In this document: positions 643-45,666 of the stretch, in pieces | Position numbering within the stretch: the stretch's first letter is position 1 | How the letters are laid out: the number at the start of each line of letters is the position of its first letter | DNA from: Pseudacidovorax sp. RU35E | Lineage (GTDB): Bacteria; Pseudomonadota; Gammaproteobacteria; Burkholderiales; Burkholderiaceae_C | DNA length: 64,000 bases | Reading direction: 5' to 3' | NCBI RefSeq assembly: GCF_900156165.1 | Contig: NZ_FTMY01000007.1 | Coordinates: forward strand, 62,001 to 126,000 | The notes under the pieces: model-generated | Told to the model about the DNA's origin: nothing | What the model saw: only the letters and a program-made list of their open reading frames with translations | Databases searched by the model: none | Made by a program: the position numbers and the translations under genes

Positions 643-750
643 CTGGACATCGACAAGCAATTGCAAGACCCGAGCACCGCCCTGCCGCCGCCGGCCAGCG
701 CCGACTTCTCCGCCCATACGCCGATGATGGCGGGGCGTGCGCTACTCTGA
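643..750 (+). pseudogene. mutS: Native 5' end of mutS, cut off by prophage insertion
   Basis: Reading from CTG 643 the frame encodes DIDKQLQD, then DFSAHTPMMA, and runs into phage DNA to a stop at 748-750. MutS proteins carry HTPMMxQYLRLKA near the N-terminus (E. coli has FDAHTPMMQQYL), so this is the original beginning of the mutS now found at 42991-45666. At codon level it aligns with the phage-side replacement (DKHLQE, then [10 protein letters not shown]). No ATG, GTG or TTG lies in frame upstream as far as I read (about base 598), so the native start is probably CTG 643, opposite GTG 42991 of the rebuilt gene. The 105 bp between poxB and this start contains GATAAT at 556-561, a possible -10 element without a convincing -35. 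Confidence 0.85.
724..732 (+). other. attL core (ATGATGGCG)
   Basis: These nine bases are identical to 43072-43080. To the left both sites read ACGCC, one mismatch, then the core, in the mutS frame T-P-M-M-A. To the right attL enters phage DNA while attR continues into mutS. Strand exchange must lie in or next to this block. Confidence 0.8.
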
Positions 751-770
751 AAAAGCACGCCTCGTCAGCA

Positions 771-793
771 GACCTACGCCAAAAGCTACGCCA
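771..793 (+). repeat. Putative integrase arm-type sites, left end
   Basis: ACCTACGCCA (772-781) and AGCTACGCCA (784-793) are tandem copies 12 bp apart, about 40-60 bp inside attL. Related copies lie near the integrase gene at 42846-42919. DUF4102 integrases carry an N-terminal arm-binding domain, so these are candidate arm sites; the binding role is inferred. Confidence 0.5.
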
Positions 794-832
794 CGACAGG
801 CACCCGCCGAACCTCGAAACCGCCCTAGAATA

Positions 833-848
833 CTGTACGGATTATCAG
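833..848 (+). promoter_or_regulatory. LexA-box-like operator
   Basis: CTGTACGGATTATCAG has the CTG-N10-CAG form of the proteobacterial SOS box and matches 10 of the 16 positions of the E. coli consensus. It lies directly upstream of the + strand gene at the left prophage end. LexA control is inferred. Confidence 0.5.
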
Positions 849-888
849 TATGTGGGCAGTACACCGACTTCGCCTTCGCGGCACCCGA

Positions 889-1305
889 ATGGACAAGACG
901 TGGATCGCAGCAGACGTCCACGTCGGCCGGCTGCGCATGGAAGAGCGAGACTTCGACCCTCGGCCCGCGCGCAAGCGCATGTCCGCCTATCTTGGCTGGC
1001 CAGACTCACGCGAGGGCTTCGTAATCCCGCCGCTGCAGCTGGCCAGGGTCGTCAAGATCATCGACCGCGGGGTGCTGATCACCGGCTTCGAGCTGCGCGA
1101 GTCGTCGTACGAGCCGAAGACGATCCGGCGAGAGCGTTTTGCGCAGACCTGGTGGTGTCTGCCCGTGCTCTTCGATGAGATGCAGGCAGCCGACCCGGTT
1201 GCGCCGCCGGCGCCGCCGGCACCGGCGGCGCGAGAGGACTGGCGCATGCGATCCTCTCGGGAGTACATGGAGCGGATCGGGCTGCTGCCGCCCGACTCGA
1301 TCTAG
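889..1305 (+). CDS. Hypothetical phage protein at left prophage end
   Basis: 138 residues from ATG 889. The frame also opens at ATG 850, but that codon abuts the LexA-like box (833-848), where transcription would have to start, so 889 is preferred; neither start has a clear Shine-Dalgarno sequence. The protein is soluble-looking, with a basic first half (EERDFDPRPARKRMSAYLGW), then VVKIIDRGVLITGFELRES, and an Ala/Pro-rich linker near the C-terminus. I recognise no family. It is the only rightward gene at this end, convergent with the spanin gene; the two stop codons share the bases CTAG at 1302-1305. Position and separate promoter suggest a lysogen-expressed or SOS-induced accessory gene. Confidence 0.6.
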   Translation: MDKTWIAADVHVGRLRMEERDFDPRPARKRMSAYLGWPDSREGFVIPPLQLARVVKIIDRGVLITGFELRESSYEPKTIRRERFAQTWWCLPVLFDEMQAADPVAPPAPPAPAAREDWRMRSSREYMERIGLLPPDSI

Positions 1306-1568
1306 CGCCCCAGGGGCGCAGTACACGCGGCCAACGCCGCCTCCAGCTCGGATTCGTATCCTTCACGCAGCAGCAGCTCAGCTTGAGCCGCCTGCACCCA
1401 GTGGTCGACGTCGACGCCCGACCGAAGCGCATCGGTCGGCATGACGGGCCGCGGCGGCGCCTGTACCCGGCATTCGACCGGGAGCGGCACGCTGACTCGG
1501 GTGGACGGCGCCGTGCTGCATGCCACCAGCGCGGCCGTCAGCGGGGCCAGGAAGAGCACGCGGGTCAT
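1302..1568 (-). CDS. Rz1-like outer-membrane spanin lipoprotein
   Basis: 88 residues starting MTRVLFLAPL. A short hydrophobic signal ends in ALVAC, a good lipobox, so the mature protein would begin with a lipidated Cys. A proline-rich stretch follows (VPLPVE, QAPPRPVMP), as in Rz1 o-spanins. Its ATG overlaps the stop of the Rz-like gene (ATGA at 1565-1568). Spanin pairs fuse inner and outer membranes in the last step of lysis of Gram-negative hosts. It is longer than lambda Rz1 (60 aa) because of a C-terminal helical segment. Confidence 0.75.
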   Translation of the reverse strand: MTRVLFLAPLTAALVACSTAPSTRVSVPLPVECRVQAPPRPVMPTDALRSGVDVDHWVQAAQAELLLREGYESELEAALAACTAPLGR

Positions 1569-1921
1569 GGCGCAGCCCTTCCCCTCAACCAGGCGTCGAC
1601 GCGCGCCTGGGCGCTCGCGCACGCATCGCCGGGCACGGCCGGCGGCGTGGACAGGATCGTCTGCGCCAGAGCCTGGTGCGCGCGCGCCTTGGCGGCCGCT
1701 GCGGCCTGGTCCTTCTTCGCGGCCGCAGCGCGCTGGTCGGCCAGGTCGCGCAGATCCTGCGTGGCATCGCTGCAGGCCGAAGCATCGCCTCGCGCTTCAT
1801 CGCGCTGGCCACGCAGCTCGGTGGCCGCGGTGCGCGCCTGCAGCCAAGCCCAACCCATGCCGGCGTTGCCGGCCACGCTGATGGCCAGAGCCACCAGAAG
1901 CGCCTGCATCGCGGCAGTCAT
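1565..1921 (-). CDS. Rz-like inner-membrane spanin
   Basis: 118 residues from ATG 1921, which overlaps the lysozyme stop. An N-terminal membrane segment (ALLVALAISVAGNAGMGWAW) is followed by a periplasmic alpha-helical, coiled-coil-like region rich in Ala, Gln, Lys and Asp. This is the layout of an i-spanin, which spans the periplasm to contact the Rz1 lipoprotein encoded next. The frame extends upstream as an alternative reading of the lysozyme gene, but only the part from 1921 makes sense. Assignment rests on topology and position between lysozyme and Rz1. Confidence 0.75.
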   Translation of the reverse strand: MTAAMQALLVALAISVAGNAGMGWAWLQARTAATELRGQRDEARGDASACSDATQDLRDLADQRAAAAKKDQAAAAAKARAHQALAQTILSTPPAVPGDACASAQARVDAWLRGRAAP

Positions 1922-2541
1922 GGAAAGGCCAGTTCGGCGGCCGCGATAGCGTCGCGCGCGGGCAAGCCCAGGAACACCAGGCGCGTGGCGTGCCGGCGCC
2001 GCTGCAGGCCCTTGAGCACCTGGCCACCAGCTCGGACCCACTTCGGCAGTTCGTCGGCAGCACCCTGTGCATCGCCGGCGTTGAGCTTGCGCAGGAAGGT
2101 GCTCGGCCGGCCATCGGCCAGGAAGAGGATGCCATCGCGGCCGCGGCCGCCCGGGCCCGTGTTGTAGACCGTGGAGACCACCGCATCCCATTGCCGCTGG
2201 TCGAGGTCGACCTGCACCGCAGCTCGAGCGGCCGGCTCGAAGTCGCGCACGATCCGCCGCGCATAGCGCGCGTCCGCATCGGCCTGGCTGATGACCAGGC
2301 CCGGTCTCACGTCCTGCGTGTCGCCCCATCCGATGGTCCACGGCACGCCGCTGACGCCGGCGAAGCCAGCCGGAACCCCGGACAGGTTGTAAGGGTCGAT
2401 GCCGGCGCGGCGCAGCGCGGCAAACAGCGGTGACGCTGGATCCGGGTACGCACGCAGCCTGCAGGCCTCGTAGTAGTGATTGAGGACGTGGCAATCCTCG
2501 CCAACGCGGCGATCCGCGTTGGGCCCATCATCGGTAGCCAT
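1918..2541 (-). CDS. Phage lysozyme (endolysin), GH24 family
   Basis: 207 residues. It contains the T4/P22-lysozyme-type active-site region: YYEACRLRAYPD with Glu25 as likely catalytic acid and Asp34 downstream, then WTIGWGDT with Thr75. About 30 residues are inserted between the Asp and the GWGDT block, compared with the compact E-x8-D-x5-T arrangement. It cleaves the glycan strands of peptidoglycan. No signal peptide or SAR anchor is visible, so export should need a holin; two membrane-protein genes lie just upstream. It is followed by overlapping Rz and Rz1 genes, a standard lysis cassette. Confidence 0.85.
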   Translation of the reverse strand: MATDDGPNADRRVGEDCHVLNHYYEACRLRAYPDPASPLFAALRRAGIDPYNLSGVPAGFAGVSGVPWTIGWGDTQDVRPGLVISQADADARYARRIVRDFEPAARAAVQVDLDQRQWDAVVSTVYNTGPGGRGRDGILFLADGRPSTFLRKLNAGDAQGAADELPKWVRAGGQVLKGLQRRRHATRLVFLGLPARDAIAAAELAFP

Positions 2542-2546
2542 GGAAC

Positions 2547-3059
2547 TCAGCCTTCCTTGATCGTCGACGCCGTGGGCGGCGGGTTGTCGGCCAGGGGCAC
2601 CACCGCGGACGACGGCGGCTCATCGAGCGGCACGCCGGCCCGCAGCCGGCCGGCCTGCTGGTCCAGCTTGGCCTTGGCCAAAGTGCGCACCCATGTGAAG
2701 AAGGCATTGCCCATCCACCCCGCGATCAGAACGCCGCCGAATCGCAGCTCGCGCGTGACCGTGCCGGGCCACTTGGACTCCACCATGATCATGAGCACGT
2801 AGACCGCCAGTCCTGCGAGCAGCGCTGTGACCAGGTCGCGGCGCGACTCCTTCAACACGAGGAAGACGGCACGGTTGTCGTTGGCCAGCGTGAAGATGGT
2901 CTTGAAGACGCCGCCGAACAGGCCGCCCACCGCGGCCGTGACCAGGCTCTCGTAGTCCCACATGTAGACCTCCTGCGCGAAGGTCGCGGCGGAGGCAAAG
3001 CGGGCGAGGGCATAGAAGCAGATGCACATGGCCACGTTGACGAAGAGCCGGTGCTTCAT
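2547..3059 (-). CDS. Membrane protein, candidate holin
   Basis: 170 residues. A first hydrophobic segment (VNVAMCICFYALARFASA) could be a signal or TM helix; further TM-like stretches are LVTAALLGLF-type at about 38-60, LVTALLAGLAVYVLMIMV at about 76-95 and VLIAGWMGNAFFTWV at about 109-125. The C-terminal tail is charged and Pro-rich. Its place directly before the lysozyme suggests a holin, but it is longer than most and I do not recognise the family. The start overlaps the stop of the next upstream membrane protein (ATGA at 3056-3059), so the two may act together. Confidence 0.55.
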   Translation of the reverse strand: MKHRLFVNVAMCICFYALARFASAATFAQEVYMWDYESLVTAAVGGLFGGVFKTIFTLANDNRAVFLVLKESRRDLVTALLAGLAVYVLMIMVESKWPGTVTRELRFGGVLIAGWMGNAFFTWVRTLAKAKLDQQAGRLRAGVPLDEPPSSAVVPLADNPPPTASTIKEG

Positions 3060-3577
3060 GTGTTCACAGCCTTGTAGATGGCGCGCAGCAGCTGCGCGTT
3101 GAGAGAGATGGCGTAGATGAAGGCCAGTCCGACGCTCTCGATGCCCTGGCGCTCGTAAAGCCAGAACAGCGCGCCGCTGGTCTGCAGGGGCAGCGACAAC
3201 ACTCCCAGATAGCCCCAGGTGAACGCCGAGATCACGGCCGCCAGCGTGGCCAGCTTGCGAGGCCAGCGGATTGCCAGCGAGCCAGGGAAGAACGCCAGAG
3301 CCACGGCATGCGGCACGATCAGCAGCAGCGACACGATGAATGCGAAGCCGATGGCGTGTGCGCCCGGCAGGCCATGCTCCAGCGCCGCCACCTTGTGCAG
3401 CATCGACGGCGCGAGCCGGAAGATGTAGGTGATGGGACCGGCCAGGTCGTTGATGAAGGACAGCGTGACGAAGGCCGTCAGCAGGCGCACTTCGAGGCGG
3501 TCCTGCTGCTCGGGCGTCGGCACAGCAGCGGCGCTCAAGCCGCGCAGAACTTCCGGTGTCAGATGTTTGATGTGCAT
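3056..3577 (-). CDS. Multi-pass membrane protein of lysis region
   Basis: 173 residues from ATG 3577 (MHIKHLTPEVLRG). At least four hydrophobic segments: LLTAFVTLSFINDLAGPITYIF, AIGFAFIVSLLLIVPHAVALAFF, LATLAAVISAFTWGYLGVLSL and VGLAFIYAISLNAQLL. No family recognised. It is translationally coupled to the candidate holin gene and lies between the tail-fibre module and lysozyme, so a role in lysis timing or in superinfection exclusion is possible. The frame extends further upstream but that part overlaps and mirrors the preceding gene. Confidence 0.6.
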   Translation of the reverse strand: MHIKHLTPEVLRGLSAAAVPTPEQQDRLEVRLLTAFVTLSFINDLAGPITYIFRLAPSMLHKVAALEHGLPGAHAIGFAFIVSLLLIVPHAVALAFFPGSLAIRWPRKLATLAAVISAFTWGYLGVLSLPLQTSGALFWLYERQGIESVGLAFIYAISLNAQLLRAIYKAVNT

Positions 3578-3587
3578 CGGCCCGCCC

Positions 3588-4295
3588 TCAGATGAGGGTA
3601 TCGAGGTTGTCGAGGAAGAAGAGCCGCCAGCTCTTGTAGCGGCCGAGCACCTGCGCTTCAGACAGAGCGCCGGCATACACCTCGACGGCCCGGCTGATGA
3701 AGGTCTTGTCACTGGTCTGAGCCAGGCCGTTGACGCGGAACGGTCCGCGCGGCGCAATCTGCGGCGCCGTGGACGAGTAAAGGTACTTTTGCAGGCGACC
3801 GCCATTGCCGACGTACAACGTCAGGCTGGTGCCGGACACCACCAGCGCAGCAAAGATGTCGCGACCCGCAACGCGCACGTTGGTGTCAATCGTTTCGTCG
3901 GTTGTGTCTCCTGTTCGAACGCCAATCGACGCATTGCCCGTTGGGGCTACCATCAGACCACTCCAGCCTCCTACGTTGTCCCACGTCGACACGGGAAGCC
4001 GCACCGACGATTCGCCGGAAGGGAAATCGGAGTTGAAGACCGTGCACGCGGAATAGGAAGCCGTCACGATTGGCGTTGCCAGATTGATCGCAGCCGGGCC
4101 TGTGAGGCGAACACCAAAATCCTCAAAGACGACAGGGCCTCCGCCATAAAAACTAGGCACGCCTCCCAAACTCAACGACCTGCTGAGCGAGCCCTCGCCC
4201 GCCCAGGCGCCGCTGAATGCAGCGGCAACGTCTAACGGTGGCTTCGCGAACGCGACAGGGTTCTGGAAAGTTGGCGTACGAGTGATGATCTGCAT
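3588..4295 (-). CDS. Putative lectin-like tail-associated protein
   Basis: 235 residues, rich in Gly, Ser, Thr and Val and predicted all-beta by eye. The C-terminal part (DKTFISRAVEVYAGALSEAQ, then GRYKSWRLFF) looks like the end of LamG/concanavalin-type domains, where 'ALS.AEV...Y' is common. It follows the tail-spike gene by 9 bp and precedes the lysis genes, so it probably binds or decorates the fibre, or recognises surface glycans. Base composition is visibly less GC-rich than the structural genes, like the spike gene. Function is inferred from context. Confidence 0.5.
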   Translation of the reverse strand: MQIITRTPTFQNPVAFAKPPLDVAAAFSGAWAGEGSLSRSLSLGGVPSFYGGGPVVFEDFGVRLTGPAAINLATPIVTASYSACTVFNSDFPSGESSVRLPVSTWDNVGGWSGLMVAPTGNASIGVRTGDTTDETIDTNVRVAGRDIFAALVVSGTSLTLYVGNGGRLQKYLYSSTAPQIAPRGPFRVNGLAQTSDKTFISRAVEVYAGALSEAQVLGRYKSWRLFFLDNLDTLI

Positions 4296-4304
4296 GCGTT
4301 ACTC

Positions 4305-6197
4305 CTAGGTGGTAAACGTGATGTCGAAGCACTGGAGGTAGTTGTCCAGCGGAACGGCGATACCGTCGATCAGTACAGTTTCGACATCGCCTGAGTCGTC
4401 CCGGACGTTGCCCCCCAATCGGCCATATAGGAGGCGCGCACCCACTGGCACATCCGCCGTGCAGCGGATGACGATCCGCTTGGCTGATGCCATGTAGACC
4501 GACTCGATAAGCGTTCCATCAACCGCCAACTCAAAGCCAGCGAAGCCGCGGCGCGGGTTGCCAGTAGCCGTGTCACAGGTCTCGATGACGGCCTTGCTGC
4601 CCGGCACGTCGAGGTCGATGGTGATGATTCGACCTGCGCGGCGGATGGCGGAGGCACGAAGTCCCGTGTAGACCCGGCTGTCGATGGCATGCGCCTTGAT
4701 GGCCCGCCCGATGTGAGCACCCATGAGGCGGCTGCTCTCGGCCGACAGGTGAACGCCATCGTTCCAAGGCGCAAGCACGGTCTGAAGCGGATACACGGGA
4801 GTCGCCACGAATGCATTTGGCAGCTCCTCGGCGACGTCGGCTTGCGCGCCGGCCGCTCCGAAGTTGTAGACGCCCGCGGTCTGATACATCGGGAACAGGA
4901 CTTCCTGCACTTGGCCGGTAATGGCCTTCACGTCGGCGTCGATGTCCGCGAAGAGCTGCAGGAGCATGTTCTTGTATTCGGTTCGGTCGAATGGACCGTT
5001 CTCGCCCTGCAGAAATGGGACGGCTAGCAGCACGTATGTCTTGCCTTGCGTCGTCGCCAGATTTCTGGCTGCCGTCACCTGGGCAATGAGGCGGGCATAG
5101 GGTGCGGTGCCTTTCACCAGACCAGTCAGCGGGGTGCCGCCGCGGCCAGCGCAGGAACCGAGGAGCTGGAAGGGGTAGTCGCCCGGTGCGACGCCATCGG
5201 CCAGCAGCTCGCGCTTGATCTGGTCGCAGCAGCCAGACAGTGGCGTTTCGCCTGGGTTTGAGATGCCGGCAGCAGCCACATCAATGCCAACGCGGACGCT
5301 CTCCACCAGCGGCACGAGCGATGCATAGGGAGACGCGTCCCCGTACACATCAGGGCGGGTGCCGCTTGAGAACATCAGGCTATCGAATGGCTGCGTGGTG
5401 CTGATGGCCGCGCTTGCGCCCACCAAAGAACGCTCGCCCATGGACAGCGACTGGCCGTACATGATGATGTGGCAGATCTCGGCCGGGAAGGCCTGTGCTA
5501 CCCGGGGGGCGAAACGGCGGGCGCGCAGCACTTTTGTCTCTACTTCGCTGAGCGCGGCATAAGTGGCTTCCACGCCCCGCCGCCCGAACCTGACCGCACT
5601 GGATCCGTCGGCACCCGTCACGATCAACGGCTCGCTGGAATGCAGGAGCCGTGTACCGTAGAGCTTGCCGCCGACGTCGAATGCTGCCGCCTGGAAGGAA
5701 TCCTTGGTGACGCCTGCGACGGATGTCGTACCGTCTTGAGCGACGAAATTCGTAATGCCCCCACCGGGACGCTGACCGATGAGGCCATCGAATTCACTTC
5801 CGCTGAGAGGATCCAGAACCGGCACCAGCTGGCCGCCCCGCTTGACATATGTGGTCGTCCGCGTGAGGCCATCCACGCCTGCCGCAAGAATCGTGGCAAC
5901 ACCCTCGTCCGGCAGATCTGCCAGCGCCTGCGCTTTAGATGCCTTGATGTTCACGGTTGAGAGTGAAACCGTTGCGGCGTCTGTGGCCTGCCCCGCTGCG
6001 ACCTCACTTGCGAGACGGTTGGCGCCGGTCACAGTTTGTGCGTAATCAGCACCCAGGTCCTGCTCAATGCCGGCCCATGTCTTCTTGGTCTGCCCTTTGC
6101 GGTCAGTCGCCGTGGGCGATGGCGACGTTGCAAGATCCTCGATGTGCTTCAGGTCCTTTGCACCGTCGTCGAAGGTCTGGAAAGTCAATCCGGCCAT
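4305..6197 (-). CDS. Tail spike/fibre with SGNH (sialate-O-acetylesterase-like) hydrolase domain
   Basis: 630 residues. The N-terminal 200 residues look like a virion-attachment and beta-rich stem. From about residue 245 there is an SGNH-hydrolase domain: IIMYGQSLSMGE carries the nucleophile Ser in GQS, LLAVPFLQGENG resembles the QGE block of carbohydrate esterase families, and WNDGVHLSAES gives the Asp and His of the triad. The likely substrate is an acetylated surface polysaccharide, which the phage would deacetylate during adsorption. A beta-rich C-terminal domain follows. The gene sits behind its own upstream terminator and has lower GC, as expected for an exchangeable host-range module. 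Confidence 0.7.
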   Translation of the reverse strand: MAGLTFQTFDDGAKDLKHIEDLATSPSPTATDRKGQTKKTWAGIEQDLGADYAQTVTGANRLASEVAAGQATDAATVSLSTVNIKASKAQALADLPDEGVATILAAGVDGLTRTTTYVKRGGQLVPVLDPLSGSEFDGLIGQRPGGGITNFVAQDGTTSVAGVTKDSFQAAAFDVGGKLYGTRLLHSSEPLIVTGADGSSAVRFGRRGVEATYAALSEVETKVLRARRFAPRVAQAFPAEICHIIMYGQSLSMGERSLVGASAAISTTQPFDSLMFSSGTRPDVYGDASPYASLVPLVESVRVGIDVAAAGISNPGETPLSGCCDQIKRELLADGVAPGDYPFQLLGSCAGRGGTPLTGLVKGTAPYARLIAQVTAARNLATTQGKTYVLLAVPFLQGENGPFDRTEYKNMLLQLFADIDADVKAITGQVQEVLFPMYQTAGVYNFGAAGAQADVAEELPNAFVATPVYPLQTVLAPWNDGVHLSAESSRLMGAHIGRAIKAHAIDSRVYTGLRASAIRRAGRIITIDLDVPGSKAVIETCDTATGNPRRGFAGFELAVDGTLIESVYMASAKRIVIRCTADVPVGARLLYGRLGGNVRDDSGDVETVLIDGIAVPLDNYLQCFDITFTT

Positions 6198-6212
6198 ATG
6201 GTCCTTAAGAAT

Positions 6213-6237
6213 GAAAAAGGCCGCTCAAGAGCGGCCT
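6213..6237 (-). terminator. Rho-independent terminator before the tail-spike gene
   Basis: A perfect 9-bp inverted repeat (AGGCCGCTC, loop AA, GAGCGGCCT at 6218-6237) is followed on the minus strand by TTTTTC. It lies between the tail-tip gene (ends 6257) and the spike start (6197), so late transcription must read through or restart here. Confidence 0.8.
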
Positions 6238-6256
6238 GGTGGCGTTGTTGTCGCGG

Positions 6257-9103: not shown

Positions 9104-9465
9104 CGTGCCCAGAACTCCATGAGCGGGTAACCGTCCTGCAGGCTGGCCAAGTCCTGGTGCAGGTTGCCCTCGGGCAGCGCGTGCAGCACCTTGCCCTCGA
9201 CGAAAACGCCCGCGTGGTGCAGGCCCAGGGACGCGCTCTTTCCCATCAGCACCACGCACCACTCCTGCGGCTCGGCGATCTGCGCAAAACCGTGCTGGCT
9301 GGCATGCAGCGCGAAGCGGAAGGCCCTGGCCACGGCGCGCGTGCTGTTGTTGATGGTGCGGTACTCGTCGACGCGCTGGCCCAGCTCGGCCGTGTAGACA
9401 TCGGCGACGAGCGCCCAGCACGGTGGATCCGGGTACACGCGAGCGAGGTAGGTGGCGATGTTCAT
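9100..9465 (-). CDS. NlpC/P60-like tail assembly protein
   Basis: 121 residues from ATG 9465. The motif PPCWALVADVYTAELG resembles the catalytic Cys region of NlpC/P60 (C40) peptidases, and LHHAGVFVEGKVLHALP resembles the His region. In lambda-like tails the equivalent (gpK C-terminal domain) is a peptidoglycan peptidase that helps the tail cross the cell wall. It is short, about the minimum for the fold, so an inactive structural version cannot be excluded. It overlaps both neighbours by 4 bp, implying translational coupling. Confidence 0.6.
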   Translation of the reverse strand: MNIATYLARVYPDPPCWALVADVYTAELGQRVDEYRTINNSTRAVARAFRFALHASQHGFAQIAEPQEWCVVLMGKSASLGLHHAGVFVEGKVLHALPEGNLHQDLASLQDGYPLMEFWAR

Positions 9466-9971: not shown

Positions 9972-9974
9972 GGG

Positions 9975-29050: not shown

Positions 29051-29770
29051 ATGAAAACAGTGGGAACGATTCGTCGCGAGAACCTCGAACTTCTCGTGCG
29101 CGAGAGGGGAACCCTTGAGGCTGTCGCAGAGGCGGCCGGCAGCACTTCCATCTACCTAAGCCAAGTCCGAAACCAGGCTATCGACAAGGCGTCGGGCAAG
29201 CCGCGCGAAATGGGTAGCGCGATGGCGCGCCGCCTTGAGGGCGGATGTGCTAAGCCGGAAGGATGGATGGATGTGGACCACGACGATGCGCCGACAGCCC
29301 CGCCCCTATCCGTGACGCCTTCTCCTGCCTACCTGCCAGGCTTTGAAGAGCTGGTCGTGCCACTGCTGGCCAACTCTGGCGCCATGGGCGACGGCTCCGA
29401 TCAACTGCCCGACGACGTGGTGGTTGGCCGCATTTCCGTTTCACCCGAATGGGCGCTGCGAACGCTCAAACCTACGAAGCTCCAAGCCCTGCGGTTCATC
29501 CACGGCTATGGCGACTCGATGGCACCCACCTTTCTGGACGGCGACGTGCTGCTGGTGGATACGGGCGTGGCAGAGGTGAAAGTGGACGGCGTCTACGTCA
29601 TTAGCGCCAATGACCGGCTCTACATCAAGCGCGTGCGCCAGCGCATCAACGGTCGCCACGAGATCAGCAGCGACAACCCAGCAGTCAAGACCGTGGACGT
29701 GCTGGAGGGGGACACCCAGGTGAGCATCTTGGGCCGCGTCCTTTGGGCCTGGAACGGCAGGAAGTTGTGA
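29051..29770 (+). CDS. cI: CI-like prophage repressor with S24 peptidase domain
   Basis: 239 residues. N-terminal HTH (GTLEAVAEAAGSTSIYLSQV), linker at about 75-125, C-terminal LexA/S24 domain: HGYGDSMAPTFLDGDVLLVD with Ser156 and LYIKRV with Lys193, the expected catalytic dyad. It should keep the prophage silent by binding the 13-bp operators. No Ala-Gly or Cys-Gly bond lies in the linker, the usual self-cleavage site of LexA/CI proteins. No Shine-Dalgarno sequence; probably leaderless. Followed by two small genes that may be co-expressed in the lysogen. Confidence 0.85.
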   Translation: MKTVGTIRRENLELLVRERGTLEAVAEAAGSTSIYLSQVRNQAIDKASGKPREMGSAMARRLEGGCAKPEGWMDVDHDDAPTAPPLSVTPSPAYLPGFEELVVPLLANSGAMGDGSDQLPDDVVVGRISVSPEWALRTLKPTKLQALRFIHGYGDSMAPTFLDGDVLLVDTGVAEVKVDGVYVISANDRLYIKRVRQRINGRHEISSDNPAVKTVDVLEGDTQVSILGRVLWAWNGRKL

Positions 29771-32737: not shown

Positions 32738-32755
32738 TGCTTGGAGCGTGACGCC

Positions 32756-33208: not shown

Positions 33209-33244
33209 GTCCTTCGGTCCTTTGATCCTTTCGAGCTGAGCCCC

Positions 33245-33610
33245 ATGGCCATCCATTCGGATCTCCCCATCTATCGCACCGGCGTGCAGCTGCTCAACCT
33301 GGCAGTGCGCGCACAGGTCCAGATGCCGCGCGAACTCAAGCGGCAGATGGGCGACAAGATCACGCAGAACTGCGTCGACATCCTGGAGCTGATGGCGCTG
33401 GCCAACGCAGCCCAGAAGCAGCACCGCGCCGAGTACCTGCAGGCGCTGCTCACCAAGCAGCGCGCCGTCACCGTGATGCTGCGCGTGGTGTTCGACATGC
33501 GGCGGCTCTCACCCAAGCTCTGGGCTGAGTCTGTGGAGCTGCTCGGGAGCATCGGGCGGCAGGCGGGTGGATGGCTCAAGTCCGCGGACAGGAAGGCGCC
33601 TGCAGCATGA
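33245..33610 (+). CDS. avd: Avd-like accessory variability protein
   Basis: 121 residues, four predicted helices: YRTGVQLLNLAVRAQVQMPR, LKRQMGDKITQNCVDILELM, KQHRAEYLQALLTKQRAVTV, and LRVVFDMRRLSPKLWAESVE. This is the Avd/four-helix-bundle pattern. Avd forms a barrel-shaped pentamer that binds the reverse transcriptase and template RNA and is needed for mutagenic cDNA synthesis. Located between target 2 and the template repeat, as in many such elements. Confidence 0.85.
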   Translation: MAIHSDLPIYRTGVQLLNLAVRAQVQMPRELKRQMGDKITQNCVDILELMALANAAQKQHRAEYLQALLTKQRAVTVMLRVVFDMRRLSPKLWAESVELLGSIGRQAGGWLKSADRKAPAA

Positions 33611-34962
33611 CGGTCACGACTCTCATGCCCGTGCGCCAGGTGAATCTGGTCGCGCCGCTGGGCCACAAGCCCACCGACATGCACGCCACGGATACGGCCG
33701 CGCCTGCGCGCGGTGCGTCCGGTGCAGCCGCCCCGCTGATCGGCGCAAGCCTTCGGCAGGACGGCCTCCATAGCGCGATGACGCCTCGTACGCGTGGAAC
33801 TGCAACTTCAACAACGGCAACCAGAACAACAACCACCAGTCGGCCGAGCTGGCCGCCGTTGCCGTCCGCAGATTCCGACCTGTTCGCCAAGCTTGTGACG
33901 GCCTGGCTCGACTGCAGGCGCACGAAACGCAACAGCGCGAGTGCGCAGGCCTTCGAGGCCCGGGCCGAGCACCACCTGTACTCGCTGCACGAGGAACTGA
34001 GCAGCGGCAGCTACCGGCCTGGCCGCTCGATCTGCTTCGTCGTGACCCGTCCGCGGCCGCGCGAGGTGTGGGCGGCCGAGTTTCGCGACCGGGTCGTGCA
34101 TCACCTTCTCTACAACCACATCGCACCGCGCTTTCACGCGCGCTTCGTGGCCGACAGCTGCGCCTGCATTCCGGGGCGCGGCACCCTCTACGCGGCCCGG
34201 CGCCTGGAGCACCAGGTCCGCAGCGTCACGCACAACTGGAGCCGTCCGGCCCACTACCTGAAATGCGACCTCTCCAACTTCTTCGTCTTCATCGACAAGC
34301 GGGTGCTGCTGGCGGCGCTGCAGCGCCAGGTGACCGAGCCGTGGTGGATGTGGCTGACGCAGACCGTGCTGATGCACGACCCGCGGCAGGACGTGCTGTT
34401 GCGGGCCCGCCCGCACGAGCTGGCCCTGGTGCCTGAGCACAAGCGGCTGATGAACGCGCCGGCGCATTGCGGCCTGCCCATCGGCAACCTGTCGAGCCAG
34501 TTTTTCGCGAACGTACTGCTGGACGGGCTTGACCAGCATGTGAAGCACCAGCTGCGCGCGCCGCACTACGTGCGCTACGTCGATGACTTCGTGCTGCTGC
34601 ACGACAGCCCCCAATGGCTCAACGAGGCGCATGCGCGCATCGAGGCCAAGCTGGACGCGCTTCGGCTGCAGCTGAACCCCCGCAAGACGATCCTGCAGCC
34701 GGTCAGCCGGGGCATCGACTTCGTGGGCCAGCTGATCAAGCCCTGGCGCCGCACCACGCGGCCGCGGACGCTGCGCACGGCCCTGACTCGCCTGGAGACC
34801 CTGCCGCCCGGGAAGCTCTACGCGACGGGCAACAGCTACTTCGGCCAGGTCCGCCAGGCCGGCTCATCGATCAAGGAACAGGCCGCCATCGCGCGGGCCA
34901 TGTTGCGGCGTGGCCATGCGGTCGATGGCGACATGACGCGCGCTTTCAGGAGACACGCATGA
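33607..34962 (+). CDS. brt: Retroelement-type reverse transcriptase
   Basis: 451 residues if started at ATG 33607, which overlaps the avd stop (ATGA). RT motifs: KCDLSNFFVF (motif A Asp), GLPIGNLSSQFFANVLLDGL containing IGxxxSQ, the signature of diversity-generating retroelement RTs, and VRYVDDFVLLHD (YVDD active site). The conserved core begins near 33880. The 90 codons before it include the template repeat read in frame, which is low-complexity Thr/Arg. GTG 33895 (about 355 aa) is a more usual length and an alternative start. The enzyme copies template RNA with errors at adenines. Confidence 0.92.
   Translation: MTVTTLMPVRQVNLVAPLGHKPTDMHATDTAAPARGASGAAAPLIGASLRQDGLHSAMTPRTRGTATSTTATRTTTTSRPSWPPLPSADSDLFAKLVTAWLDCRRTKRNSASAQAFEARAEHHLYSLHEELSSGSYRPGRSICFVVTRPRPREVWAAEFRDRVVHHLLYNHIAPRFHARFVADSCACIPGRGTLYAARRLEHQVRSVTHNWSRPAHYLKCDLSNFFVFIDKRVLLAALQRQVTEPWWMWLTQTVLMHDPRQDVLLRARPHELALVPEHKRLMNAPAHCGLPIGNLSSQFFANVLLDGLDQHVKHQLRAPHYVRYVDDFVLLHDSPQWLNEAHARIEAKLDALRLQLNPRKTILQPVSRGIDFVGQLIKPWRRTTRPRTLRTALTRLETLPPGKLYATGNSYFGQVRQAGSSIKEQAAIARAMLRRGHAVDGDMTRAFRRHA
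33776..33878 (+). repeat. Template repeat (TR) of the diversity-generating retroelement
   Basis: 103 bp with a run of AAC codons in the target frame (N-C-N-F-N-N-G-N-Q-N-N-N-H-Q), flanked by constant GCCTCGTACGCGTGG and CGAGCTGGCCGCCGTTGCC. It is the invariant donor: both VRs differ from it at A positions. It lies between avd and the RT core, inside the upstream extension of the RT frame. Confidence 0.92.
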
Positions 34963-35524: not shown

Positions 35525-35525
35525 C

Positions 35526-39587: not shown

Positions 39588-39727
39588 GCCCCGAGACCTT
39601 CCTCGCCCTGGTAACGCTCGGCAGCGCGGCCTTCATCTTCTCGGCCGGCTTCGTCGCCGGACGCGCCTGGACCGCGTGGCGCGTCAGCCGCCAGGTTCCG
39701 CGCATATCGGAAGGCGGTTTAGCTTGA
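39584..39727 (+). CDS. Microprotein with one TM segment
   Basis: 47 residues from GTG 39584, overlapping the ParB-like stop (GTGA). TFLALVTLGSAAFIFSAGFV is a clear TM helix, followed by a basic tail (RAWTAWRVSRQ). Its stop overlaps the next TTG start. Coupling on both sides supports translation. Function unknown. Confidence 0.5.
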   Translation: MSPETFLALVTLGSAAFIFSAGFVAGRAWTAWRVSRQVPRISEGGLA

Positions 39728-39915
39728 ACACGCCTCTTTCACCGACCCGGCGCGGTGTTCCGCTCTACGGGTTCTTCGCTCGCCCGAGGGGCCTACTGCT
39801 CAAAGTCCACGCAGAGCCGTGCATCTACGCCTCTGGCTACATCCAATCACTGCGCCCGCGCTGGCCGGGCCCGACTGCCGCCATTCGATGGAACGGCCGA
39901 GGAGGTCAACAATGA
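39724..39915 (+). CDS. Small basic early protein
   Basis: 63 residues from TTG 39724 (TTGA overlap with the previous stop). Sequence LSPTRRGVPLYGFFARPRGL and the C-terminal WPGPTAAIRWNGRGGQQ; basic, no membrane segment. Its stop overlaps ATG 39912. The chain of 4-bp overlaps from 37053 to 40400 supports it. No family recognised. Confidence 0.45.
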   Translation: MNTPLSPTRRGVPLYGFFARPRGLLLKVHAEPCIYASGYIQSLRPRWPGPTAAIRWNGRGGQQ

Positions 39916-40400
39916 CCCATGGCCGCAAGCCCCGCCGGCCGCGGCGGATCTCGCTCGACCCGGTGCGCTTGGCGCGCAACGGCGCCACGCGGCTGACGCC
40001 GCCCGAGATCGCCAGCGCAATCGACCCGCTGCGCGCGGCCGCGCGCGCACTCGCCCGTGGCGTAGCCACGGAAATGGACTGGTTTACCGCGGCCAGCGCC
40101 ATGAACGTGGCCCAGGGCATCGAACACCAGGGCGTGGTGCGCGGCCTCAGCGAGCACGTGCACGGCGCCGAAGTGGCCCTGCGCGAGATCCAGCGGCGCG
40201 CCATGGTCAGCGGCGCCTGGCTGCCGCCCGAGTTGCACGTCGACGAGATCGAGCGCATCGACACGGCCGTCGACTTGCACGAGTTCCAGCTGCAGCAGCT
40301 GAGCTACAGCGAGTTCCGCCAAGTTGCGGTGCGCGTCGAAGCCGAGATTCGCTGCACCGGCGGCCGCGTGATGCAGGGACTTGCAGGAGCGGTGACATGA
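39912..40400 (+). CDS. Hypothetical early phage protein
   Basis: 162 residues from ATG 39912 (MTHGRKPRRPRRISLDP). Basic N-terminus, then long helices (AAARALARGVATEMDWFTAA, GVVRGLSEHVHGAEVALREI, VDLHEFQLQQLSYSEFRQVA). No motif recognised. Overlaps the excisionase-like gene by 4 bp. Confidence 0.55.
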   Translation: MTHGRKPRRPRRISLDPVRLARNGATRLTPPEIASAIDPLRAAARALARGVATEMDWFTAASAMNVAQGIEHQGVVRGLSEHVHGAEVALREIQRRAMVSGAWLPPELHVDEIERIDTAVDLHEFQLQQLSYSEFRQVAVRVEAEIRCTGGRVMQGLAGAVT

Positions 40401-40639
40401 CCGTGCCGCGCTTCTATCTCAGCAAGGAAGAGCTGCCGGAAGCGACCGCGCTTTCGCGCAGCACCATCGAAGAAGAGATCCGCCAGGGTCGATTCCCCAA
40501 ACCGCGGCTCTTGAGCAAGCAGCGCGTCGGCTATCTGCTTCGAGAGGTGATGGAGTGGGCGGAAAGTAGACCAGTCGCGGATCTGCCGCCTCCTTCCAAC
40601 ACTTGCCGAAGAAAAGTTAACCAGGATCGCGAAAACTGA
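40397..40639 (+). CDS. AlpA-like excisionase / regulator
   Basis: 80 residues from ATG 40397. RFYLSKEELPEATALSRSTI, EEIRQGRFPKPRLLSKQRVG and YLLREVMEWAESRP form the MerR-like winged HTH of the AlpA family, which act as excisionases or integrase regulators. Last gene of the rightward early operon and close to the integrase, as expected for a recombination directionality factor. Its last 23 bp overlap the convergent DUF5677-like gene. Confidence 0.75.
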   Translation: MTVPRFYLSKEELPEATALSRSTIEEEIRQGRFPKPRLLSKQRVGYLLREVMEWAESRPVADLPPPSNTCRRKVNQDREN

Positions 40640-41558
40640 AATTAATTGAAGGTATTGAGAGCATTGCCGGCCGCCAATCAGTCGTGTACTGTTTTCTGAA
40701 CGCGGCGATCTCTCCAGACCTGTATTCTTTCAGTATTGCAAAATAACTATCGAACGCGACCGAAGTGAAATATATAAACAACTCATTAAAGCTCTTAATA
40801 TTTCTTATTGGCGTCAATCGCACGCGCGTCGCTTCAACAATGACGGCAGTGCTCATGTCCCTTGCGTGGACCAGCTTTGACGCCTTCCCATAGAAAAACG
40901 AGTATTTTTCACGCTTGTTTATTCTTTTCGCGATTGCCGCGATAGAGGGCGCACCCGCGACTTTAAACCAATCGGTCTCAACCCCTCGCTTATCTTTGGC
41001 TTGTTGGAATTTGATATTTATCGGAGCGTATTTTTCTGAAGCAAGATGCTGATCAAGCATTGCAATGGCTTCGGATGCCTGCTGTTCAAGCTGCGCGTCA
41101 GTGACCACGGGCCCCTCATCGACCCAAGAGGCAAACGCCCTTCTGTATTCTTGAGCTTCCTCTGTAGAAGGAATAACTCGTTCCGCCCAGATCCGCTGCT
41201 CTCTCCATTGCGCAACCTGATATGCCGACGCGATTTCGTCCGTAGTATCAGCAATCATCCATTCGAGATAAAGGGAGGCTTCAAAAGCGGCTCGAAGCGG
41301 AACGAACGCCGCATCGCAGCAGCAGCGCGAAATAAGCACATGCGCTGCGTCTAGCATCATTACAACCTGCTTCAGCAACGTACCGCAAATGAGAATGTGT
41401 TTATCCGTAGCGGGACACGAAGCTAACGCTCTTGGCACTAGATTCGATCCATAATTGACCAGCTGCTCCAGCATATCGACCTGAGCAGAGTAGTAAGCTT
41501 TGACATCGGCCTCCGCTAAATCTCTGTCTAAGAATGTCGCGTGTGGATTTTCTGGCAT
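40617..41558 (-). CDS. DUF5677-like accessory protein
   Basis: 313 residues, mostly helical: AEADVKAYYSAQVDMLEQLV, MLDAAHVLISRCCCDAAFVP, LRAAFEASLYLEWMIADTTD, YSFFYGKASKLVHARDMSTA. The 'RaxfEaxlyl' motif followed far downstream by a 'SKLVHA'-type His motif resembles DUF5677 and related AbiV/HEPN-like helical proteins. The gene is visibly AT-richer than its neighbours and lies between excisionase and integrase, a usual place for cargo. No signal or TM segment. An anti-phage role is possible but inferred from family resemblance and position only. Confidence 0.6.
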   Translation of the reverse strand: MPENPHATFLDRDLAEADVKAYYSAQVDMLEQLVNYGSNLVPRALASCPATDKHILICGTLLKQVVMMLDAAHVLISRCCCDAAFVPLRAAFEASLYLEWMIADTTDEIASAYQVAQWREQRIWAERVIPSTEEAQEYRRAFASWVDEGPVVTDAQLEQQASEAIAMLDQHLASEKYAPINIKFQQAKDKRGVETDWFKVAGAPSIAAIAKRINKREKYSFFYGKASKLVHARDMSTAVIVEATRVRLTPIRNIKSFNELFIYFTSVAFDSYFAILKEYRSGEIAAFRKQYTTDWRPAMLSIPSINFSFRDPG

Positions 41559-41570
41559 AACTCCGATACC

Positions 41571-42836
41571 CTATTGCTGTGCGAGCTCCTCAAGTCTAGC
41601 GGACCATTTCTCCAACCAAATGCGGCGTTCGACGTCATAAGAGTGGCGGTTGTAAACACCTTGGATGCCGGGCGGGAGATGGCCCAGTACAGCCTCCGCC
41701 ACCGCATCAGGGCAGCCCATCGCCGCCAACTGGGTACGAACGGTGCGGCGTAAATCGTGGGGCGCCCAGTGCTCCACCGGCAAACGCGGCCGCAGGACGT
41801 CCGGCCGCGTCTTCGAGTAAGGCATGTGGTACCAGACCGCCACGCCCATCACCTTCTGGTCGACCGGCCCTTCCGCCGGCGGCCGTTTCGGAAACAGGTA
41901 ACCGCTCGGCGTGTTGGCCAGCCGCCGGCGGACGACTGCCTCGGCCCGGCCAACCAGCGGTACGCGTAGATCTGTGGCGTGCTCGATGCGGCTGGTCTTT
42001 GTCTTGGCCTTAGGCACCGTCCACCATAGGCCGTCGTTTTCCTCGGAGATCTCCCTGGCCTCCATGGCCACGATCTCGGCGCCTCGCGCACCGGTCCACA
42101 GGTAGAGCGTTAGGCCGTCGTCGATCAGGCTGGTGAAGTTGGGCAGCCAGCGCAGTAGCAGGCCGAGCTCGACGTCGCTGAGCACCCGCTTGGCAGTGAT
42201 GCGCTCCCCCTGTACCAGCTTGCCTTTGCTGCGCAGGCGGCCGCGCATGATGAGACGCCACCAGTTGGGCGTTTCCTCGGGCAGTCTGCCGGCGTCGAGC
42301 GCGTAGTCCCATGCCGCGCCCAGTTCTTGCCGAATCTGGCCGGCGAGCACCGGCGTCTTGGCCAAGCCCTCAAGCAGGCTGAATGCGTCGGCTCGCTTGA
42401 GCGTGGCGGCCTGGTGGTCGTCGATTGCGCCTAGGTAGCCTTCGAGCAGGCGCCGGACCTCTGCACGCCCTTTCGGCTTGCGGTGGACGTCAATGTGGCC
42501 ACCCAAGTAGTCCTGCACCAACTGCCGCACTGGATAGCCAGCAGCGCGGCGCTTTGGCGCGGCCGCGGCCGCCCTCGCGGCCTTCTTGGCGTCGACGGGA
42601 TCGACTCCCCCTTTGCGGCCGGCTCGCAGGTCTTCCCAGAGCGCCTGGGCCTTGGCCAGCGTCATCGCCGGCCACTGGCCGATGGTCAGTTGCCGCATCC
42701 GGCCATCGGCAGCCTTGTAGCGGTACACCCAGGACCGCCGCGAGGTGCTGGCCGCCAGGCGCAGGCCTGGAGACTCGGGCACGATAATCGTCTGGCCAGG
42801 CTGCAGCAGCTTTGCCTCGCGCGCATCGAACGGCAT
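41571..42836 (-). CDS. int: Tyrosine-type site-specific integrase (DUF4102/P4 type)
   Basis: 421 residues. N-terminal DUF4102 arm-binding domain (PGLRLAASTSRRSWVYRYKA, then MRQLTIGQWPAMTLAKAQAL), a core-binding region at about 95-200, and a catalytic domain with LYLWTGARGAEIVAMEAREI (Arg), HDLRRTVRTQLAAM (His, Arg) and GHLPPGIQGVYNRHSYDVER (His, Tyr). It recombines attP with attB. The start faces attR, and arm-like repeats lie in the 80 bp beyond it. Here the target is the start of mutS rather than a tRNA gene, the more usual target of this type. Confidence 0.95.
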   Translation of the reverse strand: MPFDAREAKLLQPGQTIIVPESPGLRLAASTSRRSWVYRYKAADGRMRQLTIGQWPAMTLAKAQALWEDLRAGRKGGVDPVDAKKAARAAAAAPKRRAAGYPVRQLVQDYLGGHIDVHRKPKGRAEVRRLLEGYLGAIDDHQAATLKRADAFSLLEGLAKTPVLAGQIRQELGAAWDYALDAGRLPEETPNWWRLIMRGRLRSKGKLVQGERITAKRVLSDVELGLLLRWLPNFTSLIDDGLTLYLWTGARGAEIVAMEAREISEENDGLWWTVPKAKTKTSRIEHATDLRVPLVGRAEAVVRRRLANTPSGYLFPKRPPAEGPVDQKVMGVAVWYHMPYSKTRPDVLRPRLPVEHWAPHDLRRTVRTQLAAMGCPDAVAEAVLGHLPPGIQGVYNRHSYDVERRIWLEKWSARLEELAQQ

Positions 42837-42845
42837 GGGAAATCC

Positions 42846-42919
42846 TTGGCGTAGATTTCCCGGAGGCTCGCCGCACCACCTGGTGTAGCTTTTGAAAAAC
42901 CAGGGCTAAAACCTACGCC
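42846..42919. repeat. Putative integrase arm-type sites, right end
   Basis: TTGGCGTAGAT (42846-42856) and TGGTGTAGCTT (42881-42891) are, on the minus strand, ATCTACGCCAA and AAGCTACACCA; ACCTACGCC (42911-42919) is on the plus strand. With the left-end copies this gives five related sites of form (A/G)NCTACGCCA. Confidence 0.5.
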
Positions 42920-42990
42920 GTTTGCCCAAGTGTAGTGAAGCGCGGATGAGTGCGGTTAGCGTGAGTCGGCGACATCGAACCCGGACCTTT

Positions 42991-45666
42991 GTGAATACCG
43001 ACAAGCACTTGCAAGAAAAAAGCCCGCAAGATCAAGCATCTACGACACCGGACTTTTTGCATCACACGCCCATGATGGCGCAGTACCTGCGCCTCAAGGC
43101 CGACCATCCCGAGACACTGCTCTTCTACCGAATGGGCGACTTCTACGAGCTGTTCTACGCCGATGCCGAGAAGGCCGCGCGACTGCTCGACATCACGCTC
43201 ACCACACGCGGCCAGTCGGCGGGCTCGCCGGTGGTCATGGCCGGCGTGCCCTTCCACTCGGTCGACACCTACCTCGCGCGCCTCATCAAGCTGGGTGAGT
43301 CGGTCGCGATCTGCGAACAGGTGGGCGAGGTCGGCGCCGCCAAGGGGCCGGTCGAGCGCAAGGTGGTGCGCGTGGTCACACCCGGCACGCTCACAGACGC
43401 CGAACTGCTGGCCGACAAGAGCGATGCCATCCTGATGGCGGTGCATGCCGGCCCTCGCAACGCCTGCGGCCTGGCCTGGCTCAGCGTCACCGGCGCCGAG
43501 GTGCACCTGGCCGAATGCGAAGCCGATGCGCTCGAAGGCTGGCTGCAGCGGGTGGGCCCGAGCGAGTTGCTCTACAGCGCCGAGGTCACGCCCGCCTTCG
43601 AGCAGCGCCTGAAGCTGCAGCGCGAGCCGGGCGGCTTCACGCTGTCGGTGCGGCCGGCCTGGCAGTTCGACCCCGGCCTGGGCGAGCGCAAGCTGCGCGA
43701 GCAATTGGGCGCTGCCAGCTTGGCGGCCTGGGGCGCCGACTCGCTGGGCCAGGCCCATGCCGCCGCCGCCGCACTGCTGGGCTATGCCGAACACACGCAG
43801 GGCCGCACGTTGTCGCACCTGCAGCGTCTGGCCGTCGAGCGCGATGGCGAGCTGATCGAGCTGCCCGCCACCACGCGGCGCAACCTCGAATTGGTGCAGA
43901 CGCTTCGCGGCGAGGAATCGCCCACCCTCTTCTCGCTGCTGGACAGCTGCATGACCGGCATGGGCAGCCGCATGCTCAAGCGCTGGCTGCTGGCGCCGCG
44001 CCGCGACCGGGCCGAGGCCCAGGCCCGACTGGGCGCCGTCGGCGCCCTTCGCGCGCCGGCGCCCGGTGAGACCGCCGCGCCCTGGAAGCTGCTGCGCGAA
44101 CAACTCAAGAACACCAGCGACGTGGAGCGCATCGCCGCGCGCGTCGCGCTGCGCCAGGTGCGGCCACGCGAGCTGGTCGCGCTGCAACTGGCGCTCACCA
44201 AGTGCGAGCGCCTGGGGCCGCTGCTGCCGAAGGGCGCGCCGCTGCTGGGCTACTTCGCCGAAGAGCTGGTGCCGCCACCGGGCTGCGCTGAGCTGCTGGC
44301 GCGTGCCATCCAGCCGGAACCCGCCGCGCTGATCCGCGAAGGCGGCGTGATCGCCACCGGCTTCGACGCCGAGCTGGACGAGCTGCGCGCCATCGGCGAG
44401 AACTGCGACGGCTTCCTGCTGGAGCTGGAGACGCGCGAGCGCGCCCTGACCGGCATCGCCAACCTGCGAGTGCAGTTCAACCGCGTGCATGGCTTCTACA
44501 TCGAGATCACGCAGAGCGCCCTGTCGCGCGTGCCCGAGCACTACCGCCGCCGCCAGACGCTGAAGAACGCCGAGCGCTTCATCACGCCCGAACTCAAGGC
44601 CTTCGAGGACAAGGCCCTGTCGGCGCAAGACCGCGCCCTGGCGCGCGAGAAGTGGCTCTACGAGCAGCTGCTCGATCAGATGCAGCCACATGTGCCGGCC
44701 CTCACGCGTGTGGCCGCCGCGCTGGCCTCGCTCGACGCCCTCGCGGCCCTGGCCGAGCGGGCGCACATGCTGAACTGGAACGCGCCCAGCTTCGTGGCCC
44801 ATCCCTGCATCGAGATCGAGCAGGGCCGCCATCCCGTGGTGGAGGCACGCCTGGCCGAAAAATCCAGCGGCGCGTTCATCGCCAACGACACGCGCCTGGG
44901 GCCCAGCCAGCGCATGCAGGTCATCACCGGCCCGAACATGGGCGGTAAGTCGACCTACATGCGGCAGGTGGCGATCATCGTGCTGCTGGCCTCCATCGGC
45001 TCCTGCGTGCCGGCCGCGAGCTGCCGGCTCGGGCCCATCGACGCCATCCACACCCGCATCGGCGCGGCCGACGACCTGGCCAATGCCCAGTCCACCTTCA
45101 TGCTGGAGATGACCGAGGCTGCGCAGATCCTGCACAGCGCCACGCCGCATTCGCTGGTGCTCATGGACGAGATCGGCCGCGGCACCAGCACCTTCGACGG
45201 CCTGGCGCTGGCGGCGGGCATCGCGGCGCATCTGCACGACAAGGCCAAGTCCTTCACCCTCTTCGCCACGCACTATTTCGAGCTGACGGAGTTTCCGGCC
45301 ACGCACCGCGCCGCGCTCAACATGCACGTGAGCGCGACCGAGAGCGGCCGCGACATCGTCTTCCTGCACGAGATGCAGCCCGGCCCCGCCAGCCGCAGTT
45401 ACGGCATCCAGGTGGCGCGGCTGGCCGGCATGCCGGCGGCGGTGCTTCACCATGCCCGCGGCGCGCTGGAAGCCCTGGAGTCGCAGCAGACGCAGGCGCA
45501 GGCCCAGGTGGACCTGTTCGCGCCGCCGCCCGCAGCCCAGACGCCGCAGGAGAGCCCCGTAGAATCCGCGCTGGCCACGCTCGACCCCGATGCGATGAGC
45601 CCCCGGGAGGCGCTCGAAGCGCTCTACACACTCAAAAAGCTGCACCAACGCGAGCGTCGGGACTGA
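42991..45666 (+). CDS. mutS: DNA mismatch repair protein MutS with phage-supplied N-terminus
   Basis: 891 residues from GTG 42991, the codon that aligns with the native CTG 643; the open frame reaches back to TTG 42922 and ATG 42946, so the exact start is unproven. Domain I has [20 protein letters not shown] with the F-x-E mismatch-reading motif; the ATPase has [15 protein letters not shown] (Walker A) and [14 protein letters not shown] (Walker B), and the C-terminus a clamp-dimer tail. MutS binds mismatches and recruits MutL. Codons before 43072 come from the phage ([20 protein letters not shown]), are AT-richer and carry whatever promoter the phage provides. The stranded native start is at 643-732. 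Confidence 0.95.
43072..43080 (+). other. attR core (ATGATGGCG)
   Basis: Identical to 724-732. Upstream is phage-derived mutS-like sequence, downstream native mutS (CAGTACCTGCGC). The core encodes M-M-A of the conserved HTPMMAQYL. Confidence 0.8.

Follow-up and report, generated by a model that had tools for sequence, protein, structure and literature searches.

How does a temperate phage insert into the coding sequence of a conserved mismatch-repair gene and leave that gene readable? The question is raised by a 64,000-nucleotide stretch of Pseudacidovorax sp. RU35E (contig NZ_FTMY01000007.1, positions 62,001 to 126,000; hereafter the window), in which a prophage (733-43080; 42.3 kb between the right edges of both cores) sits in the 5′ end of mutS. 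Very probably, the element is a temperate phage that uses a tyrosine integrase (Int) for gene-sparing integration at an 18-bp core in mutS, one arm of its attachment site (attP) doubling as the start of MutS. Both junctions, the empty site in relatives, the intact mutS and free attP copies in related phages are established below.

Chu et al. 2017 (mBio, PMC5296598, main text) describe an arrangement of this kind: elements inserted in the HTPMMQQ motif of mutS bring a new start and upstream region and leave the host start orphaned; they are reported from hundreds of Beta- and Gammaproteobacteria, with excision shown in four strains and a scar in one. The window element is therefore a further case of a known arrangement. 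It shares with these elements the gene, the motif, an integrase gene less than 300 bp from mutS (here 238 nt from the int start to the second ATG of the core), an orphaned host start and an in-frame element start; some of them are prophages, as in B. multivorans CF2.

Junctions, core and empty site

The insertion interrupts mutS within its HTPMM(Q/A) codons. At the left junction, 661-732 reads LQDPSTALPPPASADFSAHTPMMA, followed by GRALL and a stop codon at 748-750; as a preliminary description had proposed, the native mutS start (661-750, forward strand) runs through the core into phage DNA. That description had placed the host start at 643, which holds approximately: in the host frame, 541-724 contains no ATG or GTG, and the sole ordinary start codon is TTG 661. 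The right junction (42991-43080) carries a different start (first residue V or M) in frame with full-length MutS, which again agrees with what had been proposed; the open reading frame (42922-45666) matches all five Pfam MutS domains. The phage-encoded replacement start occupies 42991-43071 (forward strand; GTG 42991, with ATG 42946 and TTG 43009 as alternatives), and no strong ribosome-binding site precedes any of these three codons. The host remainder of mutS (43072-45666, forward strand) is supported by its Pfam domains and by same-genus comparison.

The core shared by both junctions is CAYACGCCSATGATGGCG (18 bp, 16/18 identical), with CATACGCCGATGATGGCG at attL (715-732) and CACACGCCCATGATGGCG at attR (43063-43080), both on the forward strand. 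When both strands of the window were searched with up to two substitutions allowed, these copies, at 715 and 43063, were the only ones. The junction had previously been given as ATGATGGCG; the shared sequence is confirmed, its exact extent is not, the core being an imperfect repeat of 18 bp.

A mutS gene is present in all 15 genomes from the genus: the window's own, G010 (a lysogen of the same type), G013 (mutS split over contigs) and 12 whose uninterrupted leaders were examined. The left-hand start is joined directly to mutS in three of them, G004 (locus L016), G009 (L015) and G012 (L014), so the split of mutS in the window is real and more than chance. An in-silico empty site (window 1-732 joined to 43081-45666; 3318 bp) aligns ungapped with each of the three loci, at 93.6-94.4% identity; this is the native arrangement for which a search of related genomes had been suggested. 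The 42991-43071 version occurs in 0/12 of the uninterrupted same-genus leaders, none of the prophage-free relatives having it upstream of mutS; the nearest, that of G014, is 65% identical over 65 nt. Elements of the same type were seen with both ends in G010 and G185, with a host-type start at the far end.

A temperate tailed phage has very probably integrated, by means of its tyrosine integrase, at the 18-bp core in the HTPMMA codons near the mutS start, its attP bearing a substitute mutS 5′ end beside int. With such an attP, integration exchanges the opening ~30 codons together with everything upstream of them, the frame being kept.

Excision and state of mutS

Excision would restore an in-frame native mutS, as the 18-bp cores are colinear and excision at any point in the core keeps the frame. 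The element of V. splendidus leaves a 2-bp scar on excision (main text of PMC5296598); none is predicted for the window prophage. It is exceedingly improbable that excision leaves a frameshift here and turns cured cells into hypermutators: strain 12B01 of V. splendidus is a precedent, but any crossover inside the colinear cores keeps the frame, prophage-free relatives have an intact mutS, and no scar was found in the three other hosts reported in the same main text.

The ratio of nonsynonymous to synonymous substitution rates of the window mutS is 0.040-0.058 against four relatives and 0.039-0.069 among those relatives; to judge from its sequence, the gene looks constrained.

IHF-like sites in the supplied start

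The substitute codons would form the P-side arm of attP, with two sites resembling those of integration host factor (IHF), 31 bp apart, between the arm-type Int sites and the core. On that layout the new N-terminus of MutS would be att DNA that happens to be translated.

Sites were scored against the nine defined positions of the IHF consensus WATCAANNNNTTR. The distal site, CGACAAGCACTTG (42999-43011, forward strand), agrees at six positions; the proximal site, GATCAAGCATCTA (43030-43042, forward strand), agrees at seven and lies inside the MutS frame. For comparison, 52 phage ends (the window, 47 loci, three attP and phage Aval, see below) were reduced to 41 by dereplication at an identity of 80% in the final 96 nt. 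Host leaders came from 70 loci, of which five were dropped (four with a nearby integrase match, one too short); the remaining 65 gave 60 after dereplication.

At the proximal offset (-45 from the second core ATG), the score is at least 7 in 30/41 phage ends and at least 8 in 24/41; at the distal offset (-76, i.e. 31 bp further up), the corresponding counts are 20/41 and 11/41. Host leaders without integrase reach 7 at the proximal offset in 3/60 cases and at the distal offset in 1/60. A site scoring at least 8 anywhere in the stretch was found in 30/41 phage ends, versus a mean of 2.3 and a largest value of 6 in shuffled sequences. The arm is also translatable throughout the set: an in-frame ATG, GTG or TTG follows the last stop in 41/41 ends, and the mutS frame is open over at least 24 codons in 37/41, versus 7/41 and 21/41 for the other frames. 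Read as protein, the proximal site is a recurrent NQxx(L/V), ~14 codons ahead of HTPMM.

Relatives of the integrase at other targets bear on the role of these sites. Among 36 loci scanned for tRNAs, eight integrases (L103, L104, L107, L109, L110, L112, L117 and L033) adjoin the 5′ end of tRNA-Gly(CCC); given this position, the elements would supply upstream, not 3′, tRNA sequence. Both IHF-like sites are present there, at -50 and -19 and with scores of at least 7, in 6/8 loci; L117 has the -19 site alone and L033 is weak. (L117 had been placed at the 5′ end of a phosphatase-like gene, which is wrong: the tRNA-Gly intervenes.) A third target is the start of a D-2-hydroxyacid-dehydrogenase-like gene, used by L101, L105, L114 and L036, the last being a second related integrase in the same genome as the window (G000:C17:540957-542225). 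An IHF-like site with 8-9 of 9 positions lies 29-30 nt before that start in all four (30 nt in L036), and L105 and L114 have a second one 31 bp further upstream. In total, at least one strong IHF-like site was found in 13/28 relatives of non-mutS type, after L257 had been moved to the mutS type (14/29 as run, 3.19 expected); the first assignment of L257 was an error, its attP being of mutS type (KLTPMMQQ).

The NQxx(L/V) codons might instead be kept for MutS function, as a useful N-terminal tail with incidental IHF resemblance. The motif does sit in a translated stretch in mutS-type elements; however, the same pair of 13-mers, with the same 31-bp spacing, precedes an untranslated tRNA-Gly in 6/8 relatives, and host MutS leaders are without the motif (present in 3/60), which makes this explanation very unlikely. 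The conserved pair is best explained by an att function, because it also precedes tRNA-Gly, where nothing is coded. The phage-supplied MutS codons thus look like attachment-site DNA read as protein, to which IHF would bind. The overlap of MutS codons with IHF-like sites may be new: IHF is absent from the main text of Chu et al. (PMC5296598; supplements excluded), and no link of IHF to mutS attachment sites was found in the literature searched, mostly outside subscription journals.

Both a himA-type and a hip-type IHF gene score over the cut-offs in the host genome. The himA-type subunit gene lies in the window itself (49393-49671, reverse strand; G000:C10:111393-111671), ~4 kb downstream of mutS.

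Integrase and arm-type sites

The integrase gene (41571-42836, reverse strand) encodes a tyrosine recombinase with Arm-DNA-bind_3 and Phage_integrase domains. Between it and the replacement start (42847-42919) lie three conserved sites, at 42847-42858 (reverse strand), 42882-42893 (reverse strand) and 42909-42919 (forward strand): two GGCGTAGcTTTT and one AAAAcCTACGCC, recorded as inverted repeat I1. Their position is conserved across the 41 dereplicated ends and they covary between elements; they look like arm-type sites of Int. Two CTACGCC direct repeats at the left end (773-792, forward strand; CCTACGCC, 773-780; GCTACGCC, 785-792) are likely arm-type sites as well; since the motif RCTACGCC occurs 12 times in the window, they are assigned by their position and by reference to the conserved arm sites.

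Spread of mutS-type elements and free attP

A relative of the integrase (E ≤ 1e-60) was found in 7/399 genomes of the order, and mutS directly adjoins it in 4/7 (G000, G147, G185, G297); G010, from the genus search, is a fifth genome with the integrase beside mutS. In named genomes, mutS stands beside the integrase in 47/80 loci among the matches listed, to which scope the following counts and hosts also belong. The gap between the two genes is 211-269 nt in 46/47 (L111: 1633 nt, incomplete int match), and four of the 47 loci coincide with the contigs of G010, G185, G147 and G297 named above. Their hosts belong, among others, to Comamonadaceae, Oxalobacteraceae, Burkholderiaceae, Alcaligenaceae, Neisseriaceae, Rhodocyclaceae-like bacteria and Methylococcaceae; Xylophilus sp. 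Leaf220 and Variovorax paradoxus ISL-79 are examples of environmental strains with this arrangement.

More distant integrases (32-33% identical) adjoin mutS in 2/57 sampled mutS loci from outside the genus (L137, L144), and one that is 36% identical does so in a genome of the same class (L268). The window integrase is homologous to the mutS-adjacent integrases in the 47/80 listed loci and to that of L268 (36%). In an integrase tree of 80 rows, the mutS label can be explained by 4 changes, versus 25.2 in shuffles (0/500 as low), with labels from a motif search that missed L257, a case outside the tree, so that other loci labelled 'other' may hide mutS-type cases. The window integrase belongs to a set of eight rows that are all of mutS type (support of 96 in the Shimodaira-Hasegawa-like approximate likelihood ratio test, quick search).

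Free attP copies were found in phage sequences. The record of Acidovorax phage Aval (OP131589) begins at an attP that reads MQEKTEPNQQLAGIPISEHTPMMH and then stops. Aval is an isolate and has this mutS-type attP beside an integrase 58% identical to that of the window; the available text of its description (PMC11619371) gives a myovirus morphology and mentions neither mutS nor attP. In IMG/VR, sequence outward of the integrase exceeds 200 nt in 33/80 loci, and 22 of these carry the core motif; 9/22 continue into non-MutS DNA. L257 (KLTPMMQQ) is a tenth free attP and L089 a further one. Together with the three prophage-free genomes, these phage contigs bear out the earlier proposal of an attP that imitates mutS codons and reconstitutes the gene, bringing along upstream sequence of its own.

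Noviherbaspirillum autotrophicum TSA66 (L124, L087, L088) has two copies of the integrase at mutS, with a distance of 36,756 bp between them; the inner copy faces an attP. A separate contig of 36,844 bp, close in length to one copy of the element, bears the same attP. These loci would correspond to a tandem insertion and a separately assembled copy.

Gene content of the prophage

Matches to PHROGs were obtained for 16/20 proteins submitted. PHROGs and Pfam identify endolysin, tail fibre, tail, tape measure, major tail, major head, head protease, portal, large terminase and HNH proteins, as well as a CI-like repressor, helicase/primase, reverse transcriptase, kinase, ParB-like, AlpA/excisionase-like and integrase proteins. 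The repressor, with an S24 peptidase domain, is encoded at 29051-29770 (forward strand); a protein with a C-terminal AlpA/excisionase-like domain, the candidate excisionase, at 39755-40639 (forward strand). The set covers what is expected of a temperate tailed phage, from integrase and repressor through terminase, portal and head to tail and lysis, and the element looks like a complete one.

That it is a dead remnant fixed in mutS is unlikely: the integrase, excisionase-like, repressor, terminase, portal, head, tail and lysis genes are all open frames, and related attP copies occur in free form.

Two further genes were recorded. The reverse-transcriptase protein (33571-34962, forward strand) has as its best PADLOC match a generic reverse-transcriptase model (2.9e-39), followed by a UG4-type defence-associated reverse transcriptase (6.7e-24); it is possibly a defence gene. 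A DUF5677 protein (40617-41558, reverse strand), without PHROG or PADLOC match, adjoins int.

Transcription of the rebuilt gene

In the lysogen, transcription of mutS would start in phage-side sequence or inside int, and any effect on mutation rate would then act via the expression level. A candidate native promoter (CTGAGG, 16-nt spacer, GATAAT; 534-561, forward strand) is the best matrix hit in 481-711 and is severed from mutS by the prophage. Its hexamers are identical in L014 and L015, and read TTGAGG/GATAAT in L016. A simple consensus scan found no promoter in the native leader, 534-561 included, or in the phage-side leader. With a sigma-70 matrix (mononucleotide shuffles; GC-rich hosts), 2/41 phage leaders reached P < 0.05 (mean P 0.56; window phage-side leader, P 0.83), as did 13/65 host leaders, which are enriched.

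The elements of Chu et al. are stated in their main text to supply a promoter; none was located in the phage-side leader of the window. The preliminary description had a phage-end promoter drive the rebuilt mutS; the consensus scan, the P of 0.83 and the 41 leaders, which are not enriched, do not bear this out. Such a promoter is neither supported nor excluded by the sequence, as the lack of a consensus match does not amount to the lack of a promoter. The switch in mutation rate is unproven, because no promoter signal was found in the phage-side leader.

A regulatory switch or active lysogeny, in which excision and integration change the MutS level and the mutation rate differs between lysogenic, induced and cured cells, is possible but doubtful. 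The promoter-like box of the native leader (CTGAGG or TTGAGG with GATAAT) is lost in the lysogen, native leaders scoring more often than phage leaders, and active lysogeny was proposed in the main text of Chu et al. (PMC5296598), where a scar-based mutator was shown in V. splendidus. However, mutS would be in frame in both states, purifying selection on it is unchanged, and the sparing of target genes is common among phages.

Several points weigh against reading the supplied start as a translated attP arm in front of a functional mutS. The IHF-like sites of the window itself are weak (7 and 6 of 9), and the proximal offset scores below 7 in 11/41 phage ends. The counts at fixed offsets are not independent trials, because related sequences share offsets by descent. 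Neither the consensus scan nor the sigma-70 matrix located a promoter for the rebuilt gene, and the low substitution ratio may merely reflect recent integration.

Host leaders resembling phage ends

In the 65 nt that precede the core, the leaders of the uninterrupted mutS in G003 (L018) and G014 (L025) are 68% and 65% identical to phage ends, versus at best 45% and 55% to the other host leaders compared; sequence-shuffled leaders reach at most 46% to phage ends. Three further host leaders of the genus (L015, L016, L026) reach 54%.

Phage remnants upstream of mutS were considered in G003, G014 and G002 and rejected: in ~5, 11.5 and 12 kb, respectively, blast and open frames gave no match to an integrase or a mutS phage beyond the leader, no family-library search of those frames having been made. 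An excision footprint in G005 was also rejected: its mutS is 97% identical, its leader differs, and the 1.2 kb that separate mutS from the upstream gene hold a PrlF/YhaV toxin-antitoxin pair (L017:247-1262), not a phage remnant.

Either a prophage start stayed behind when the prophage was lost through homologous recombination between the two related starts of mutS, or hosts of this genus were the source of the phage starts; capture of host starts by phages explains the likeness of G003 and G014 equally well as footprints. A wider proposal, namely that the N-terminus of MutS in lysogens is a translated attP arm, that IHF and Int bind the leader and first codons and gate MutS expression, and that prophages leave starts as footprints, is tentative and, as a whole, rather improbable.

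Comparison with other systems

SXT-type elements integrate in the 5′ end of prfC and encode a replacement start for it; they are conjugative elements and use another gene. In a Burkholderia strain, Tuanyok et al. 2008 (PMC2612704) report a prophage, GI8c, at mutS; its 15-bp repeat, ACGCCGATGATGCAG, overlaps the window core, and the passages on this island do not analyse the case as a rebuilt start. SpyCI of Streptococcus pyogenes, the precedent first put forward, is likewise phage-like and occupies the 5′ end of a gene for mismatch repair, mutL. According to the account in PMC3430984, it cuts mutL from its promoter and gives a mutator, whereas the site in the window is in mutS and the gene is rebuilt; the window element does not lie at the 5′ end of mutL or separate that gene from the mutS promoter. 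The likeness to SpyCI as a 5′ insertion in a repair gene stands, and the elements of Chu et al., at mutS itself, are the closer precedent. Prophages located between mutS and cinA are the subject of a Pseudomonas paper; it concerns the region upstream of cinA and was set aside.

Implications

The arrangement shows how a conserved coding sequence can serve as a phage target and the gene survive: the attP arm is made translatable. Comparison of the mutS-type and tRNA-Gly-type attP within one integrase family separates the demands of the attachment site from those of the host gene. If occupancy by IHF or Int affects how much MutS is made, this would tie mutation rate to lysogeny and to growth phase.

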